A stretch of 24,481 bases of DNA from a virus, in the IMG/VR virus record IMGVR_UViG_3300045144_000086, positions 1-24,481 of that record; one strand, given 5' to 3'. Shown here piece by piece: positions 1,757 through 9,289 of the stretch. Within the stretch, counting starts at the first letter, position 1, and every line of letters starts with the position of its first letter. A model generated the notes under the pieces. The model was not told where the DNA came from. It did not search any database and saw nothing but the letters and a program-made list of their open reading frames with translations. A program made the position numbers and the translations under genes.

Positions 1757-4177
1757 ATGGAACAGTTTGCACCGGGCGTTGAGATTCTTGAAAAAGATTC
1801 TCTGCCCACCATTCAAACTTCGGGCGCGCAGTTCTCCGGCATCGTGAGCACCGCGCAACGTGGCCCGGACAACGTGGTGACGCTGCTTTCCGGCATGGAG
1901 CAGTTCAAAAAGCGGTACGGCTACTACGGCGGCACCTTCTTGGGCTACCTCATGGCGAACGGGTACTTCGATCAGCTTGGCGTGGGTCTCTTCTTTGTTC
2001 GCGCCACGCATCACGACGGGGTGACTGGTGTGTACGTCCCCCGCGTGATGAATCAACAGTTGAACATCATCAGGACCATTTCCGCCATCACGAACGCCAA
2101 CCCCGCCCGTGTGACGACTTCGGTGGCGCATGGTTTCGTCCGCGGTCAGAAGGTTCGCATGGTGGACGTGACGGGCATGACGCAGGTGAGCGGCAACGTC
2201 TATGTCGTCACTCCGCACGCCACCGATCCCACCATATTCTTCTTGGACGGTTGCGATTCGACCGCTTACGGCGTCTTCATCGCCGGAACGGTGGAAGGGT
2301 ACGCGGAATCGTCCATCATCCAAGCGTCTTCGACTGGCGCTTGGGCGAACAGCACGCTTCTCACCTGCCAGAAGTACGCGCTTTCCCTGAATGCTGAAAC
2401 CACGGCGGGTGCAAGCACCTGCACGCCCGCCAGCATCGCCGGGATGGAAGTTGGTGACGTGGTGTACTTGGAGCAGTATTTGAACATTCTGCCCAACATC
2501 GTCACCGCCATCAACACGGGGACCAATCAGGTCACTTTCCGCACGGCGCTCCCGGCGACGGTGGCGATCACCAGCATGACGGTGGGCGCTCCCGGTGCCC
2601 CGATTATCGTGACGAAGGCTGGGCATGGTCTCAAGACCGGCCAGTACGTCAAGATCAGCGGCAACACCCGCGTCACTGGCCTTCCGACTCTCAACGCAAA
2701 TTGGGTCATCGCCCGAACGGGCGCTGATACGTTCACCTTGGACGGCAGCGATTCCATCAACTACACTGACACTGGTGTTGGAAGCTATGGCAATTACAAC
2801 CTGACGTGGGACACCGGTGCGTACCTCAAGTCCACCAACACGCACAGGACCAAGACGGCGCTCTCCGTCGCGTACACGTCGGGGACACAGATTCAAGTGC
2901 TTTCCGCCGCGACGATCAACGTGGGCGCTCTGCTCCTGTTGGTCACGTCCACTCGTGTCGTGGAAGGCCGGGTGGTTTCCAAAAACGGGAACATTCTGAA
3001 TGTGACCATTACCAAGGCGGATGGCACGGCGACTTTGCCGGTCAACACCTTGGTTGTGTCCGTCAACTTCGATCTTCTGCATCAAGTGGATGGCACCACC
3101 ACGCGGTACGAAGGTCTCTCCTGTGAATCCGAAGACAACATTGACCACTACGTTGCCCGCTTTGCGCAGAGCGAATACCTGCGGGGCGTGGCTGGCGATA
3201 CCGGTGCGGGCGGAGACTACAAGGCGTACACGTATCCGATGGCGTTCAATTACGAAGCCATGACGCAGGGCGCGGACGGCACCACACCGGACGACACGGA
3301 CAAACTCGGTACGAACACCAACAAGGCGTACAAGCACGGCATGGCGCTCTTTGACAGCGTGCCGACGCTTCCTCAATTCGCCGTTCCCGGTGGGTCCGTG
3401 ACGGTGCAGCGGGCTGCGGACACTTACGCTCAGAGTCGTGGCGACACCATCAACGTCATCGCTGCACCGGAAACGTCCGACACGCAGGAAGAGCTTTTGG
3501 CCTTCCGCAACGTGACGCTCAATCTGGTGTCGTCCTACACCGCGCTCTACGCTCCGTGGGGTCGTGAGCCGAATCCCGACATTCCGGGTGCCTATGTGAA
3601 TGTGCCCCCGGAAGGTCGTATCTTGGGCATGATCTCGGAAGTGTCGAAGCGGCGCGGAATCCAGAAGCCCCCGGCCAACGAGCTTGTGAAGTTTGCGAGC
3701 TTGGTGGCGTCCTTCACTCCGACCGAGCACGGCGTTCTCAACGCCGCTGGTGTGAACTTGATCCTCATGGAAGAGGGTCGCGGAATCCGGTGCATGGGTG
3801 CCCGGACTCTGTGGCCCAACGCCGACCGGAAACAGTACCTCAACGTCCGATCCATCCTCAACGGCGTGAAGCGCGGTCTCAAGGAGTTCGGAAAGGCCAT
3901 CGCGTTCGAGGCTTCCGATGACCTGCTGTGGAAGTACATCCAGACCGAAGGCAACAAGTGGATGGAGCAGCGGTGGAAGGACGGGTGGTTTTTCCCGCGA
4001 AACGACAAGACGAAGGCGTTTTTCTTCAAGTGCGATGCCACGACCAACACCGAAGAGTTGCGCCTGAGCGCCAAGGTCCGCTCGGTGGTCGGAATCAATC
4101 CCGTCCTGCCGGGTGAGTTGATCCAGTTCGAGTTGATGCTGTGGGACGGCGGCGTGGTCGCGGTCAACGAGCTATAA
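1757..4177 (+). CDS. Contractile tail sheath protein with inserted domains
   Basis: This 806-residue protein polymerises around the tail tube and contracts to drive it through the host envelope. The N-terminus has the sheath signature: PGVEI near residue 6, GIVSTAQRGPDN at 28-39, and a segment ending FFVRA near 80. The C-terminal 200 residues match the conserved sheath core, with RGIRCMGARTLW, NVRSILNGVK, a helix around DDLLWKYIQTEGNKW, KCDATTNTEE and a PGELIQFELML end. It is longer than typical sheaths (about 400-660 residues; T4 gp18 is 659). The excess is a middle insertion of roughly residues 100-450 containing two similar domains described separately. The start is the ATG after AGGGGG at 1743-1748. 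The tube gene follows 19 bases later, as usual for sheath/tube pairs. Confidence 0.97.
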   Translation: MEQFAPGVEILEKDSLPTIQTSGAQFSGIVSTAQRGPDNVVTLLSGMEQFKKRYGYYGGTFLGYLMANGYFDQLGVGLFFVRATHHDGVTGVYVPRVMNQQLNIIRTISAITNANPARVTTSVAHGFVRGQKVRMVDVTGMTQVSGNVYVVTPHATDPTIFFLDGCDSTAYGVFIAGTVEGYAESSIIQASSTGAWANSTLLTCQKYALSLNAETTAGASTCTPASIAGMEVGDVVYLEQYLNILPNIVTAINTGTNQVTFRTALPATVAITSMTVGAPGAPIIVTKAGHGLKTGQYVKISGNTRVTGLPTLNANWVIARTGADTFTLDGSDSINYTDTGVGSYGNYNLTWDTGAYLKSTNTHRTKTALSVAYTSGTQIQVLSAATINVGALLLLVTSTRVVEGRVVSKNGNILNVTITKADGTATLPVNTLVVSVNFDLLHQVDGTTTRYEGLSCESEDNIDHYVARFAQSEYLRGVAGDTGAGGDYKAYTYPMAFNYEAMTQGADGTTPDDTDKLGTNTNKAYKHGMALFDSVPTLPQFAVPGGSVTVQRAADTYAQSRGDTINVIAAPETSDTQEELLAFRNVTLNLVSSYTALYAPWGREPNPDIPGAYVNVPPEGRILGMISEVSKRRGIQKPPANELVKFASLVASFTPTEHGVLNAAGVNLILMEEGRGIRCMGARTLWPNADRKQYLNVRSILNGVKRGLKEFGKAIAFEASDDLLWKYIQTEGNKWMEQRWKDGWFFPRNDKTKAFFFKCDATTNTEELRLSAKVRSVVGINPVLPGELIQFELMLWDGGVVAVNEL
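2075..2290 (+). repeat. First E1_FCCH-like domain within the sheath (residues about 107-178)
   Basis: The translated segment follows the pattern of the E1_FCCH-type beta domain seen in many phage proteins: an initial strand with VTTSVAHGF, then GQKVRMVDVTGMTQVSGNVY, a short strand, FFLDGCDSTAYG and a Gly-ending strand. It is homologous in pattern to the segment at 2570-2785: both have an HG-F/L-x-x-GQ motif, a V-G pair, and a final LDG-x-DS-x-x-Y motif. It probably forms a surface decoration on the sheath rather than part of its contractile core. Confidence 0.65.
2570..2785 (+). repeat. Second E1_FCCH-like domain within the sheath (residues about 272-343)
   Basis: This is the second copy of the domain at 2075-2290. 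It contains VTKAGHGLKTGQYVKISG, RVTGLPTLNANW, and DTFTLDGSDSINYTDTG. The order of motifs and the spacing between HG and LDG-x-DS match the first copy, but the amino-acid identity is modest, so the duplication is old or the two were acquired separately. Assignment to the FCCH family is from memory of the motif. Confidence 0.65.
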
Positions 4178-4196: not shown

Positions 4197-4679
4197 ATGG
4201 CAACCGGAACGCGCATTGATCCCTTCCGGGGGTACAATTTCTACGTGTTGGCCCAAGCCAAGGGCTTCACCGTGGAGATGGGCTTCAAGAAGGTTTCCGG
4301 GCTGGATGTGGAAGTCGAAGTGACGGAGTACCGCGAAGGCACGGACGTTGCCACTGTCCGCAAGCTCCCCGGCTTGGCGAAGTATTCCAACATCGTGTTG
4401 GAGCGTGGCATCACCGACAACGGTGCGGCTGTCGAGTGGATGCAGGAGATCGTGAAACTCACCGAAGAGTCCGGTCTTGCTGCGGACGCCGATTTCCGTT
4501 CGGAGGTCACTATTCAACTGCTCAATCGCAATCAGGAAGTCGTGCGTGAGTGGCAGGCGACGGCTGCGTGGCCCGCAAAGCTCACGGTTGGTGATTTCGA
4601 CGCCACTTCGTCCGACGTGGCGATTGAGACGTTGGAGTTGGTCCACGAAGGTCTCACCTGCACGCAGTTTGGCGGGTGA
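4197..4679 (+). CDS. Tail tube protein (T4 gp19-like)
   Basis: This 160-residue protein forms the hexameric rings of the inner tail tube. Its length equals that of T4 gp19 and related tube proteins. It shows the family pattern: DPFRGYNFYV at the N-terminus, FKKVSGLDVEVEVTEYREGTD, then KLPGLAKYSNIVLERGIT, a WMQEI helix, NRNQEVVREWQATAAWP, and a closing VAIETLELVHEGL segment. These correspond to the strands and inter-ring loop of the gp19/PVC-type tube fold. The ATG follows a good AGGGGG site (nt 4182-4187). Directly downstream is a strong hairpin that could limit read-through and so let tube and sheath be made in excess over later products. Confidence 0.96.
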   Translation: MATGTRIDPFRGYNFYVLAQAKGFTVEMGFKKVSGLDVEVEVTEYREGTDVATVRKLPGLAKYSNIVLERGITDNGAAVEWMQEIVKLTEESGLAADADFRSEVTIQLLNRNQEVVREWQATAAWPAKLTVGDFDATSSDVAIETLELVHEGLTCTQFGG

Positions 4680-4719
4680 TAGCTCTCTGATAACCCATAT
4701 TCTTTAGGCGAACACGCAC

Positions 4720-4745
4720 GGCCCGTGCAAGCGATTGCATGGGCC
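4720..4745 (+). terminator. Intergenic 11-bp hairpin with GCGA tetraloop, possible partial terminator or processing site
   Basis: GGCCCGTGCAA (4720-4730) pairs with TTGCATGGGCC (4735-4745): ten Watson-Crick pairs and one G-T, capped by GCGA, a GNRA-type loop. It lies in the only sizeable intergenic gap (4680-4774), between the highly needed tube gene and the chaperone gene. The following bases, TTGTGAC, are a poor U-tract, so a fully efficient intrinsic terminator is unlikely. Attenuation or an RNA processing/stability role is more plausible. The rest of the gap shows no convincing promoter. Confidence 0.55.
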
Positions 4746-4760
4746 TTGTGACAAAGCCAA

Positions 4761-4767
4761 GAAAGGA
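4761..4767 (+). promoter_or_regulatory. Ribosome binding site setting the chaperone start at 4775
   Basis: GAAAGGA lies 7 bases before the ATG at 4775. An in-frame upstream ATG at 4739 lies within the 3' arm of the hairpin and has no comparable site, so 4775 is the better start. Confidence 0.7.
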
Positions 4768-4774
4768 TGCTCCC

Positions 4775-5692
4775 ATGTCCGACGACAAAACTCCCCCGAA
4801 AGATACACAGGACGTTGTTGTGCCGGAGACGCCGGTGGAACTCCCGCCCGCTCCGGTGATTGCCGCTGGTACGCCGGTGGTCAAGTCCATTCGCGCCGCC
4901 ATCAAGGATGTTCCGATTCATCTTGCGTGCGGCGTGCTGGTGGACGGGAAAATTTACCGGGATATTCTTGCCACTTCGATCATGGCCGGAGACCGCAAGG
5001 CGTTCGGAGAGTCGAAGAACAGGAACAACGGCGGGAAGATGATTACCGACCTGCTCACGACCAAGGTGCGGAGCTTTGTCGGAGCGAAATTTCCCCTGCA
5101 TCAACGGCATCTTCGTGACATGATGCTTTCGATGGATCGGGATCAGATCACCTATGAGCTTCGTAAAGCGACGGTGGGGGATCGGCCCTTTGAAGAGATT
5201 ATGACGTGCGTGCATTGTTCCTCGAAAAACTCCGTTAGCGTGGAAGCCGCGGAGATCGAAGAATCTTTCCGTGTCATGCCCGACGATGTGCGGTTGCATC
5301 TGGATTCCAAAGGGCGTTGCTACTTCACGGTCCATGTGCCTGAGTACGGTTTCCATGCCGACTTCTTCTATGGGGACGGCAAGGAACAGGAGTACATGGC
5401 GGGGACCACCAACGACAAAACCAACGTCTTCGACATGGAGTTGCATATTCTTTCCCGTCTCTGTCTTGATTGGAACGGGGAAGGCCCGATTTCCGCGGAG
5501 CAGCTTGCGGAGATGGATGTGGATTTCATCGAACGTCTCCAAGACGCGATCCGCGACTACGAGTACGGGTACAACTTCACTCCGTTGGCGTCCTGTTATT
5601 CGTGCGGGCGCTTTACGAAAGTGAGGGTCAACCCTCTGGATTTTTTGTTTCCGAAGACGGGCTTGGTGGAGCCGAAGAAGCGTCGTACCTAG
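4775..5692 (+). CDS. Zinc-ribbon tail assembly chaperone / baseplate-type protein (zero-frame product)
   Basis: This 305-residue product lies between the tube and tape measure genes, the position of tail assembly chaperones. Residues 1-35 are Pro-rich and probably disordered. A helical domain follows (about 60-140), ending RKATVGDRPFEE. Two CxxC pairs, C145/C148 (CVHC) and C274/C277 (CYSC), probably bind one zinc ion. The same layout, a helical domain leading into Cys pairs, is seen in small zinc-ribbon proteins of contractile tail clusters, including T4 gp26-type proteins; I cannot choose between these names. A slippery heptamer at 5641-5647 near the end allows a longer product. In known phages the short and long forms coat the tape measure during assembly and are absent from the mature virion. 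Confidence 0.85.
   Translation: MSDDKTPPKDTQDVVVPETPVELPPAPVIAAGTPVVKSIRAAIKDVPIHLACGVLVDGKIYRDILATSIMAGDRKAFGESKNRNNGGKMITDLLTTKVRSFVGAKFPLHQRHLRDMMLSMDRDQITYELRKATVGDRPFEEIMTCVHCSSKNSVSVEAAEIEESFRVMPDDVRLHLDSKGRCYFTVHVPEYGFHADFFYGDGKEQEYMAGTTNDKTNVFDMELHILSRLCLDWNGEGPISAEQLAEMDVDFIERLQDAIRDYEYGYNFTPLASCYSCGRFTKVRVNPLDFLFPKTGLVEPKKRRT
5641..5647 (+). other. Programmed -1 ribosomal frameshift site (T TTT TTG)
   Basis: In the zero frame the sequence reads gaT TTT TTG, a canonical X XXY YYZ heptamer with TTT in the P site and TTG in the A site. A -1 slip here enters an open frame that continues to 5832, while the zero frame stops at 5690-5692. GAGGG at 5623-5627, 13 bases upstream, could act as an internal Shine-Dalgarno stimulator as in dnaX; it can also pair with CCCTC at 5632-5636. 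A small hairpin downstream (GGCTT/GAGCC arms, 5660-5673, GGTG loop) is a weak candidate stimulator. Confidence 0.75.
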
Positions 5693-5832
5693 ACCGGGTG
5701 CTTTTCAATCTGGCCTACGGGCTTCATTGGCACTACCAAGACATGCTTGAGTTGCCTTATGAAGTCCTGATCCGTATGCACGAACTCCTGCAAGAACAAT
5801 GGGAGCGTGAGCGGAAGGCGTTGAAGGGGTGA
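5647..5832 (+). CDS. -1 frame extension of the tail assembly chaperone
   Basis: This is expressed as a fusion: 4775-5646 in zero frame, then -1 reading to the TGA at 5830-5832, for about 352 residues in all. The added 61 residues end in a helical stretch with the motif FNLAYGLHWHYQDMLELP followed by a helix rich in Glu and Arg. This Ala-Tyr/His-Trp pattern recalls the T part of G/GT chaperones and DUF6760-like small proteins of contractile tail clusters. A separate start, such as the GTG at 5698 (44 residues), is possible, but I see no ribosome site before it. The extension ends 13 bases before the tape measure start, as expected for a G/GT pair. Confidence 0.72.
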   Translation, partial: VSEDGLGGAEEASYLDRVLFNLAYGLHWHYQDMLELPYEVLIRMHELLQEQWERERKALKG

Positions 5833-5845
5833 GAGGGTCTAGGCG

Positions 5846-8800
5846 ATGAGTTTGATGAGTCTTGGAAATTTTGGACTCGGCTTCGTGGCACAGATGCGCG
5901 GAGTGCGATCCATCACCCTTGCCACTGCCGCCGTCTCCAAACTCCAAGATGAAGTGAACGCTCTCCGGCATCTTCAAGCGCGGGCGCGTATTGAAGCCTT
6001 TGGTGGGGATAAAGAAGCCCGGAAGTGGGGGCAGGCTTTTGGGATGCTGGCCGCGGAGCGAAGCGCGGAGCTTCGTGAGCAGGTGGAAGAACAGCAGCGG
6101 CTTCAAATGCGGCAATCCCTCATCGGCAAAGCAATGGTCGGTGTAGGTGTCGGCATGATGGGTGTCGGTGCCGCCCTTGGAGCGGGCCTCGGTGTGGCTT
6201 TGAAGAAGGCAACGCAGTTTGAAGCCACCATGAACATCGTGCGGATGAACATTCGGAACATTGATGCTTCGCAGTTGAAGTCTCTTGGCGAAGAGATGAA
6301 GGTGCTTTCTATCCGGCTCCCCGGCACTGTGCAGGATATGGCGAATGCTGCGGTGGTGCTCTCCAAGATGGGTATTCCCACTCAGGAGTTGGCCGCGGCG
6401 ACGGAGCAAGCCATTGTTCTGTCAACCGCCGCGGGTATTGACGCTGCGACGGCTGCGCAACACATTTCGACGGTCTATCTTACCACGAAGGCCACCCTTC
6501 CTGCGGCATGGAGCATGGGCGAAGCCATGCGCCGGATCAACTCGGCAATGGTGGCTCTCGCCACGTCCGGTCCTGTCACGGTAGATGAGTTGGCCGATCT
6601 CACCAAACGCTCCGCTGTGGCAGCGAATCAGCTTGGGTTGACCACGGATCAGACCCTTGCTTTTGCCGCTGCGTTGGGAGACCTGCGCATTCCGCCGGAA
6701 ATGGGTGGTAGTGCCTTGCTTCGTATTTTCAAGACGATTCAAAGTCAGCCTGAAAAGATTATCAAGGGTTTGGAAGCCGTGAATCATCCGGCGGCGAAGA
6801 TGTGGAATAGCCTTGCTGGTGTGGACAAGGTGAAGGCCGCACTGGAAGGCTTGAATATCGCCGCTCAGATGGAGCAGACCGGGCAGAAGATGGGTGGGCA
6901 GGCGGTGTCTTTGAGTAAGGTGATGGGTGAGATGTTTGGAAAGAACATCCGTACCGACATTGCCCTTGGCGCTCTCATGTCCAGTTTGCAGGAATCGTGG
7001 GACAAGGGGGAAAAGGGTCTTACTCGCTTGGACAACCGATTGAATACGGCGGCTCAGGGTATGCGTGAAGGTGCGGCGGCGGAACAGCGCATGGATCAGT
7101 GGGCCACCAGTCTTTCCGGTCAGTGGGAAATTATGACTTCGACGTTGGACACGTTCATCACCAGCGTTGGGGAAGAATTGGTGCCGCTGGCGAAGAAGGT
7201 GGTGAGCGTTTTTCGTTCGATTGCTGATTGGCTTGGGAGTTGGTCGGCGGCGCAGAAGAAGTTGCTTGGGTACGTTACGCTTTCCGCGGCGGCATTTTTC
7301 CTGATTACAGGTGCCATTATCGCTCTTGGCGGTGCCGTGAAGATTGCTACCATTTCCTTGAGTGCGTTGGCTCCGGCGTTGGCTGCTGGTACTGCGGGAG
7401 CCACGGGATTTGGTGCAGCACTCTCCGCTGTTGCATGGCCGATTACGTTGGTCATCCTTGGTGTGGCGGCTCTTGGTGCGGCGATCTACGGTCTCTACAA
7501 GCTGAAATTTTTTGAGGGTTTCGTAGATGGTTGGAAGACGCGGGCCAAGGAGATGAGTGAGGTATTTTCCGGTGTGAAGCAGATTTTCGTGGATGCTTGG
7601 GCGAGCATCAAAGAGGCGTTTGCAGATGTGGTGGTTTCAATGGGTGGGTCCGGCGGTGTGACTGCTTCCTTCCGTGACGCCGGTAAAGCCATCGGGATTT
7701 TTGCTACTTACGCGATGCAGGTGTACGTTGCCTACTTCAAGCCTTTCATTCAGCTTACGGTGAGTGCGGTGGTTTTGGCCGTGCGGACCATTGTTGCCGT
7801 TTTTGCCTATCTCGGAAGCGCCGTTTCGAGTTTCGTGACCTTTTTCCGCGGTGTTTGGGCTGTTTTGAAGGGCATTTTCACTTGGGATATGAGCACGGTC
7901 AAAGAAGGTTTCTCCCTCATCCTGAGTGCCATGAAAAGCTCTCTCTTGGGCTTCTTGACTTTTTGGAAGCGTATTTGGCGTGCCGCGGGGGATTTCATTG
8001 TCAGCTTCCTTCCTGAAAAGGTGCAGCTTGCTTGGCGCAAGATGATCGGGTGGCTTGCCGATGCGTGGGACCGCTTCTTGGTTTGGATTGGGTTGAAGGA
8101 GAAAACGCGGGCACAAGAAGAACAGATAGCACGCGATGGTGCCGTGAGTGCGGAGCAGCGTAAAGCGGAGCAGTTGCAGAAAATTCAGGAAGACGCCGCG
8201 GAGCGGCAGCGGGCCGGGGAGACGGCTACTACCAAAAGAATCGAGAACGAGCTTGCGGAGCGGGTGGCATCCTTCAAAGCCTACCAACAGGAGATTTTAG
8301 GGCTTCCATCGGAGAAGAAGGCTGAATTGGCCGGGAAAATGGAAGCCGAGCGGATCAGGGTCACTGAGATCATCCCGGCTTTAGAGGCGAATCGTATGGC
8401 CGTCTCCGGGGCTGGCGGTGTGGCTGGCGCGGCTGGCATGACTGGCGGTTTGGAGGCGTTGGTAGCGCAGGCGGAGAGCGCGGGTGTCTTGCAGGATTGG
8501 ATGGGGAATGCCGTTAGCGAGATGGTGTCTCGCATCGAAACGGCCACTCCCGAACAGGCGGAGCAGGTGTCTGCTGCTGCGGAAGCCTTGGCAAATCAGT
8601 TGTTCGAGAGCATCGGCGCTTCCATCATGCCGGACATTGCTACCTATGTGCAAAATCGTGCGACGGCGGATGTGGCGCAAGTGCAAGACCTCAATGCGCT
8701 TATTGCCGACATGACGGCAGATGTGGAGCCGTTGCGGGCTGCATACGAGCAGGCGGCGGCTTTGGCGGCAAGCAATCCCATGTTGGAAACTCTTGCGGAT

Positions 8801-9289
8801 GAGGCGGAGATTCGTCGTCAAGTTTGGATGGAAGAGCAGGGGTATGTGGATGAGCAGCGTGCTCTTCTTGAAGCTACGCGCAATAGCCTTGGGGCTTTGG
8901 CGGAGTATAAAAGTCTTCTTGATGTGGCAAATACCGCGGGTGGGACGCCGGAGCAAATGGCAGCGCGGGCCGAAGCCGTGCGTAAGCTGTTATCCTTTTT
9001 GTCCGGTAGAGACCTTCCCTATGAAGCTCCGTTTCGTCTTGAGGCGTTGCCCGGCGAGAAGGTTCCGCCTGCTGGCGCTCCGGGTGGTCGTCCGGGTACT
9101 CCCCCCGTTCGCGGCACCGGAAACGCTGTGGCCGATGCCGTTACGAGTGGGATGAACACCATGATAGAGCGGATGCCAAAAAAACTTGAGGGCACAATCA
9201 AGACCACTCTTCAAGTGGATCAGCGTGTGTTGGCTGAAACGGTCAATGAGTTCAACGCTAATGCCGCTGGTGCCACCGGAAATGGGTAA
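5846..9289 (+). CDS. Tail tape measure protein (TP901 core family)
   Basis: This 1147-residue protein sets tail length and is ejected ahead of the DNA. Residues about 118-300 match the TP901/phage-tail minor core: KKATQFEATMN, LSIRLPGTVQDMANAAVVLS, QELAAATEQAIVLST, then PVTVDELADLTKRSAVAANQ and LRIPPEMGGSALLRI. Hydrophobic Gly/Ala-rich segments lie at about 94-117, 473-500 and 500-550; these may insert into the host membrane during ejection. A second helical, weakly hydrophobic region (about 600-740) is followed by a coiled-coil, Glu/Gln-rich region and a Pro/Gly linker before the C-terminal 50 residues. No lysozyme or peptidase domain is evident. By the rough rule of 0.15 nm per residue the tail would be at most about 170 nm. 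The ATG follows GAGAGGG at 5831-5837. Confidence 0.95.
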   Translation: MSLMSLGNFGLGFVAQMRGVRSITLATAAVSKLQDEVNALRHLQARARIEAFGGDKEARKWGQAFGMLAAERSAELREQVEEQQRLQMRQSLIGKAMVGVGVGMMGVGAALGAGLGVALKKATQFEATMNIVRMNIRNIDASQLKSLGEEMKVLSIRLPGTVQDMANAAVVLSKMGIPTQELAAATEQAIVLSTAAGIDAATAAQHISTVYLTTKATLPAAWSMGEAMRRINSAMVALATSGPVTVDELADLTKRSAVAANQLGLTTDQTLAFAAALGDLRIPPEMGGSALLRIFKTIQSQPEKIIKGLEAVNHPAAKMWNSLAGVDKVKAALEGLNIAAQMEQTGQKMGGQAVSLSKVMGEMFGKNIRTDIALGALMSSLQESWDKGEKGLTRLDNRLNTAAQGMREGAAAEQRMDQWATSLSGQWEIMTSTLDTFITSVGEELVPLAKKVVSVFRSIADWLGSWSAAQKKLLGYVTLSAAAFFLITGAIIALGGAVKIATISLSALAPALAAGTAGATGFGAALSAVAWPITLVILGVAALGAAIYGLYKLKFFEGFVDGWKTRAKEMSEVFSGVKQIFVDAWASIKEAFADVVVSMGGSGGVTASFRDAGKAIGIFATYAMQVYVAYFKPFIQLTVSAVVLAVRTIVAVFAYLGSAVSSFVTFFRGVWAVLKGIFTWDMSTVKEGFSLILSAMKSSLLGFLTFWKRIWRAAGDFIVSFLPEKVQLAWRKMIGWLADAWDRFLVWIGLKEKTRAQEEQIARDGAVSAEQRKAEQLQKIQEDAAERQRAGETATTKRIENELAERVASFKAYQQEILGLPSEKKAELAGKMEAERIRVTEIIPALEANRMAVSGAGGVAGAAGMTGGLEALVAQAESAGVLQDWMGNAVSEMVSRIETATPEQAEQVSAAAEALANQLFESIGASIMPDIATYVQNRATADVAQVQDLNALIADMTADVEPLRAAYEQAAALAASNPMLETLADEAEIRRQVWMEEQGYVDEQRALLEATRNSLGALAEYKSLLDVANTAGGTPEQMAARAEAVRKLLSFLSGRDLPYEAPFRLEALPGEKVPPAGAPGGRPGTPPVRGTGNAVADAVTSGMNTMIERMPKKLEGTIKTTLQVDQRVLAETVNEFNANAAGATGNG

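Follow-up and report, generated by a model that had tools for sequence, protein, structure and literature searches.

A candidate -1 frameshift in a zinc-ribbon tail assembly chaperone gene, with relatives that appear to slip in either direction

Slippage in the -1 direction is already known from phage tail assembly chaperones (PMC5009743, PMC3931495 and PMC12846349, in the available parts of each). In phage lambda, low-level -1 slippage yields the two isoforms G and GT, of which the short part binds the tape measure protein, and T4 is an exception to this frameshifting (excerpts of PMC5009743). Contractile-tail phages of the Vandenendeviridae and Andersonviridae carry a conserved GTTTTT -1 site in their chaperone genes, and poly-T sites occur in the chaperone genes of T4-like phages (excerpts of PMC12846349). 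A +1 site, TTT-CGC, has been proposed for haloviruses of the HF1 group, whose genes run in the order tube, chaperone, tape measure (available part of PMC7230728).

The locus described here lies in a 24,481-nucleotide stretch of viral DNA (the window), where an ORF list and profile searches give the order tail sheath (1757-4177, 806 aa), gp19-like tail tube (4197-4679, plus strand; PF06841, 2.3e-37), chaperone ORF and tape measure (5846-9289, plus strand, 1147 aa; PhageMin_Tail PF10145, 5.7e-17; phrog_1272, 6.5e-42). At 286-340 the sheath resembles E1_FCCH (E 1.2e-6, which narrowly misses the Pfam cut-off). The chaperone ORF (4739-5692, plus strand, 317 aa) sits between the tube and tape measure genes as expected of a G/GT-type gene, and its short, G-like product bears the zinc-ribbon cysteines C157, C160, C286 and C289. 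Its end consists of the half-site C286/C289 followed by AAC CCT CTG GAT TTT TTG TTT CCG. Thirteen residues past the last cysteine, the slippery heptamer T TTT TTG occupies 5641-5647 (plus strand) in zero-frame phase, with codon boundaries at 5642 and 5645. From 5647 the -1 frame reads GTT TCC GAA GAC GGG and stays open for 61 codons to a stop at 5830-5832 (extension 5647-5832, plus strand), 13 bases before the tape measure ATG at 5846. A phased slip site, followed by a shifted frame that stays open almost to the tape measure start, is the G/GT-type arrangement, and its coordinates, as first given in a sequence-only reading of the window, check.

Based on these features and on the comparisons below, we propose, with a probability of roughly 0.93, that this gene uses programmed frameshifting to make both isoforms of a G/GT-type tail assembly chaperone, of the kind represented in T4 by gp26/gp51 (PF12322). 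Sequence comparison shows a slip site in phase and a second domain that is homologous among relatives, and it shows that these are conserved; the occurrence of slippage, its rate and the binding roles we infer. Most ribosomes would terminate at 5692 and release the short zinc-ribbon protein. In a minority, the P- and A-site tRNAs would slip back by one base on T TTT TTG and re-pair there, a step that a downstream stem probably aids and an upstream GAGGG perhaps does, and the slipped ribosomes would read 61 further codons to give a long, GT-like form whose C-terminus carries a helical domain. On the model of lambda G/GT, the short part may coat the tape measure while the extra domain of the long form recruits tail tube subunits, and both isoforms would leave before the virion is complete. 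If slippage follows the decoding of both codons, as we assume from studies of HIV-1, the main junction peptide would be ...LDFL/VSEDG, with LDFF/VSEDG presumably as a minor form; of the peptide expected initially, VSEDG after the slip stands, whereas the second Phe would mark the minor form.

Homologous loci were sampled in scans anchored mainly on the tail tube, plus named phages (best 80 of 520, 546 and 177 confirmed relatives). This gave at least 247 loci at which the tube query matched and, following the tube, 149 distinct junctions, of which 72 are from viruses or phages and 77 from genome contigs, the rows being related so that junction counts are not fully independent. Seventeen of the 247 loci were unscored: two have an open tube, and 15 lack a next gene that could be scored (<700 nt of contig left in 14 of these). 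Junctions were classed by which alternative frame holds an extension of 110-260 nt, with the motif unused in classing; four (L112, L117, L118 and L045) were classed by hand. Of the 72 viral junctions, 64 were classed (14 as -1 and 50 as +1) and eight were dropped by the extension-length rule. Dropped rows examined later comprise two -1 junctions with T TTT TTA (L027 and L128) and two +1 junctions with TTT_C (L030 and L095); in these four an extra ORF separates the tube gene from the chaperone gene, which begins well past it. Three loci (L017, L039 and L086) have the +1 motif on contigs that end before the second ORF closes and were left out of the counts, as was L048, whose contig ends inside the gene.

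A canonical X_XXY_YYZ heptamer lies in the overlap at all 16 viral -1 junctions, window included, and at each of the 14 classed the overlap (last 150 nt) holds a single heptamer, whose first codon stands 12-14 residues past the last cysteine. The heptamers are T TTT TTG, TTC or TTA, and A AAT TTT in L025. Since the in-phase background in -1-class chaperone genes is 16 of 3495 codons, an overlap of 24-50 codons would contain a heptamer by chance in 10-20% of cases, and TTTTTTG occurs eight times on both strands of the window against 5.7 expected. A lone heptamer is therefore weak evidence, and the heptamer becomes strong evidence through the comparison, 16/16. The sequence-only reading had asked for the heptamer and the -1 frame to be conserved in homologous loci; this holds throughout the viral -1 class, although most sampled viral relatives use a +1 shift at TTT_C instead. 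L112, a -1 junction, has TTT at the site, whereas all 42 of its other counted Phe codons are TTC, and L191, a cellular -1 homologue that is itself a long phage-like form, is without a canonical heptamer.

In the +1 class, TTT_C lies in the overlap at 52 of 52 viral junctions scored, exactly once at each of the 50 classed, against a background of 13 in 13,326 codons. Elsewhere in the chaperone and next large gene of this class, Phe is encoded by TTT 222 times versus TTC 1085 times (83% TTC), and TTT at the site in all of them would have a probability of ~5e-23 if 29 clusters (70% identity) were independent. The +1 site is 14 residues past the last cysteine in 49 of 50 junctions and 15 in one; across both classes the distance is 12-15 residues in all 64 junctions measured, of 68. 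Signal and extension are conserved together among homologues, in 16/16 -1 and 52/52 +1 scored viral junctions. The window itself carries TTG TTT C (5645-5651, plus strand), identical to the +1-class motif, in zero-frame phase and overlapping the -1 heptamer, so that the window could conceivably slip +1 as most of its sampled viral relatives do. We regard this as extremely unlikely, since a +1 shift there would add just 32 residues that by eye bear no resemblance to the extension domain, and the domain homologous to those of L106, L108 and L104 sits in the -1 frame of the window. The motif at 5645-5651 is possibly a relic or a bidirectional site.

Alternatively, the small ORF could be a separate gene, translated from a start of its own, whose overlap with the chaperone is due to chance or to translational coupling. 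Its frame in the window is open upstream of the site as well (120-aa ORF from TTG at 5470), and an ATG, GTG or TTG occurs no later than codon 15 of the new frame at 4 of 14 -1 and 20 of 50 +1 junctions, with an SD-like stretch before the ATG in L127 (duplex energy -7.5) and L089 (-5.7). Records of the Streptomyces phages BRock, GiJojo, LuckySocke and Alone3 (L007-L010) annotate the +1 extension as a separate hypothetical protein, that of pSt2308 does not annotate it at all, and 12 of the 57 cellular pairs described below have a start codon (ATG, GTG or TTG) ≤4 nt from the stop. In the window, however, the new frame has no ATG, GTG or TTG between the heptamer and 5698, and the GTG at 5698 falls inside the first predicted helix; an own start would also leave unexplained why a frame-appropriate slip motif stands at one place in 16/16 -1 and 52/52 +1 junctions. 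We therefore consider an independent gene very unlikely. Homologues without the heptamer but with a clear start of their own, which the sequence-only reading had named as counter-evidence, were absent from the 16 viral -1 junctions; outside the viruses they do occur, with an ATG overlapping the stop in L184 and L190 (Tumebacillus) and an ATG or GTG at the stop in L199, L205 and L221, none of the five with a canonical heptamer. One -1 junction, L127 (5299-5330), combines T TTT TTC with an SD-preceded ATG in the new frame and may have two routes to the domain.

T homopolymers are error-prone, and a sequencing or assembly error could in principle have split a single in-frame gene. The probability of this is close to negligible, as the junction is identical in two further contigs (83 and 87 kb, possibly the same virus) and the gene is divided at this same point in relatives in which the heptamer or the shift direction differs. 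Position, the complete agreement of the viral -1 junctions and a homologous helical extension thus support the -1 frameshift in the chaperone gene that was originally suggested.

The 93 nt after the heptamer (5648-5740) are predicted to fold at -40 kcal/mol (MFE; z -4.0 to -4.4 across runs) into a small hairpin (5650-5661) and a long stem (5662-5740), together 5650-5740 on the plus strand. Among 610 folding windows across the fragment, z is as low as -4.0 in 2 and the energy as low as -40 kcal/mol in 8. The long stem begins 14 nt past the heptamer and is absent when just 80 nt are folded (-24.6 kcal/mol); stimulators usually lie nearer the slip site than 14 nt. Downstream RNA has a mean z of -1.69 in the -1 class (n=14, window included) versus +0.12 in the +1 class (n=50; Mann-Whitney p 1.6e-4) and is negative at 13 of 14 -1 junctions, with L112 as the exception at +1.2. 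This contrast is as expected if structure aids -1 slippage alone. The strongest predicted fold of the 610 (z -4.8) is at 4681-4773, spans the tube-chaperone gap and the chaperone start, and could be a terminator or a regulator.

The SD-like GAGGG at 5623-5627 (plus strand), 13 nt before the heptamer, is a possible stimulator; it ranks in the best 2.6% of positions in its gene and also pairs, as the 5' side, with 5632-5636 in a hairpin of 5 bp. The element is thus present and good in the window as was claimed for it, but it is not conserved: it reaches the best 10% of gene positions in 3 of 14 -1 and 2 of 50 +1 junctions and is strong just in the window, L106 and L108, and we reject a conserved SD-like stimulator as a family feature. 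A special upstream hairpin at 5600-5647 was likewise rejected (z 0.04).

Among 29 aligned chaperone homologues, 28 match PF12322 (T4_baseplate) at E<=0.01, not all of them above Pfam's own cut-off, and the window protein is the sole one without a match at that threshold. T4 gp26 and gp51 both belong to PF12322 (8.8e-64 and 3.9e-52). This family membership overturns the idea that the zinc-ribbon protein is a novel attachment for G/GT frameshifting. The chaperone profile relates to gp26 at P 89.7, to an eight-member gp51 alignment at P 95.2 and to T4 gp51 alone at P 26.6. An AF2 model of the zero-frame product (pLDDT 85.9) has as its best two of 659 solved chains by Z YqbN (3klu, Z 6.1), which we take to be a chaperone homologue, and the HK97 tail assembly chaperone (2ob9, Z 5.5); both are under 8, so these fold matches are supportive at most. 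Viral-library matches of the model include T4-like baseplate hub assembly proteins. Foldseek gave no PDB match for it at E<=0.001, PDB sequence searches with the queries A10, A11 and A12 no convincing relative, and the search for relatives in named phages via L113 and the hub protein no match.

The extension of the window is predicted as three helices (pLDDT 86), in agreement with the helical domain proposed before. Searched directly, it matches no family, PF20546 (DUF6760) included. DUF6760 is matched at E<=0.05 by 4 of 14 -1 and 5 of 25 +1 extension members, and the extension profile matches 16 extensions of bacterial contractile-injection-type loci at P 95.5, one of which (L168) matches DUF6760 at 4.5e-22; profile-profile comparison thus relates the extension domain to DUF6760. 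In T4, an in-frame C-terminal segment of gp51 (L249, 9077-9226, the 3' end of gene 51) seems collinear with the extension and is absent from gp26, which makes gene duplication in place of frameshifting possible. We rejected this segment as an established in-frame copy, the match being suggestive in the combined profile (P 36, E 4e-4) and below P 3 with separate profiles.

The same domain appears to be reached by slips in either direction. The chaperones of L104 (+1) and L106 (-1) share 52% identity over 265 aa; at the site, L106 reads ACT TTT TTG TTC AGA TAG with the domain in -1, and L104 reads TCG TTC TTG TTT CGA TAG with the domain in +1. In a set of about a dozen sequences, the extension domains of these two are 46% identical over 74 aa (E 2e-21), and the -1 domain of the window matches that of L106 (41% over 41 aa, E 3e-10) and the +1 domain of L104 (E 3e-8). 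Profiles of the 14 -1 extensions and of 25 of 29 representative +1 extensions match at P 92. A tree of 43 representatives, inferred by a quick method from the tube and the chaperone portion before the site, places two changes of direction, one at L104 and one on the stem leading to the large +1 clade. The tree has several long -1 branches, and gain and loss are indistinguishable on it. By sequence comparison, slip direction would therefore have changed at least twice at one homologous site, as between L104 and L106.

Related arrangements occur in bacterial contractile-injection-type loci. The tube query reached 77 junctions in genome contigs, of which 20 were skipped for not having the expected gene pair and 57 were kept, including L191, kept by name. 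Neighbours were scanned in breadth at one locus, L168 (Paenibacillus), which encodes SpoIIE, an AAA ATPase, Pvc16_N, a sheath and two gp19-like tubes, and for three ORFs of L209. In L168 a short CxxC protein lies between the tubes, followed by the DUF6760 ORF in -1, and 16 such short CxxC proteins correspond to the phage chaperone profile over its first half (P 98.3). A canonical heptamer lies ≤75 nt from the stop in the overlap of 44 of the 57 pairs, against a background of 28 in 6411 codons; the heptamers include T TTT TTR or TTT, A AAT TTT, G GGG GGR, C CCG GGG and others, and those of three of the 44 (L186, L189 and L244) lie further upstream and may be incidental. Nine of the 13 pairs without a heptamer carry NNG GGG GAR, a G_GGG tetramer; slippage tetramers are a known class (available part of PMC4066793). 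Independent initiation is possible in part of the set. A CxxC protein with a DUF6760-like ORF in -1 overlap and slippery heptamers is seen at L168 (6512-7101), L209 (6551-7095) and L214 (6429-6946). From these sequences, bacterial contractile-injection-type loci seem to carry the same -1 arrangement as the phage chaperones in 44 of 57 pairs.

Taken together, we consider it probable that this chaperone family keeps a two-isoform output while the slip itself flips between -1 with RNA structure and +1 at TTT_C without it, at least twice and 12-15 residues past the last cysteine, and that injection systems share the -1 signal. Our confidence is held down by the single injection-type locus with neighbours scanned in breadth and by the pairs with a start codon at the stop. 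The homologous site would then offer a natural series, with backward slips, forward slips and, in L184 and L190, apparently a start codon in its place, in which it can be tested how recoding signals evolve under a kept two-product output. Gene products are also expected to have been missed in Streptomyces phage records, which list them as hypothetical proteins with no link between them, and in loci for contractile injection systems, a kind under development as protein delivery tools; if true, these bacterial nanomachines, too, would depend for their assembly on a chaperone made by frameshifting. Among the matches listed in our literature search, in which absence weighs little, we found neither a direction change within one chaperone family nor frameshifting in injection-system chaperones, and we tentatively regard as new the direction change at one homologous site, the bacterial-phage TTT_C family and the injection-type heptamers.

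Of the known systems, the Vandenendeviridae and Andersonviridae resemble the window in having a -1 signal in the chaperone gene of a contractile-tail phage, and the available part of PMC12846349 describes no direction change for them. Phage P2, with its products E and E+E', is likewise a contractile-tail phage with a -1 shift at a T6G run; sub-threshold Phage_P2_GpE matches occur in injection-type extensions (L213 at 0.0035, L168 at 0.049), whereas Phage_TAC_7 is without a match in the window and reaches just 0.023 in L113. P2 gpE is not known to be a zinc-ribbon protein of the PF12322 type. The two-isoform -1 scheme of lambda G/GT is like that of the window, but the lambda chaperone is not known to be a zinc-ribbon protein and its slip site is another. 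The archaeal virus HSTV-2 has a TCC TTT CGC site, with TTT C as in the +1 class; we rejected its chaperone as a homologue, as it has no cysteine and similarity is not visible by eye. T4-like chaperones reportedly (Vladimirov 2022, by its title) suggest a mechanism other than frameshifting. T4 gp26 and gp51 are of the same family, PF12322, as the zero-frame homologues described here, and T4 uses separate genes for them.
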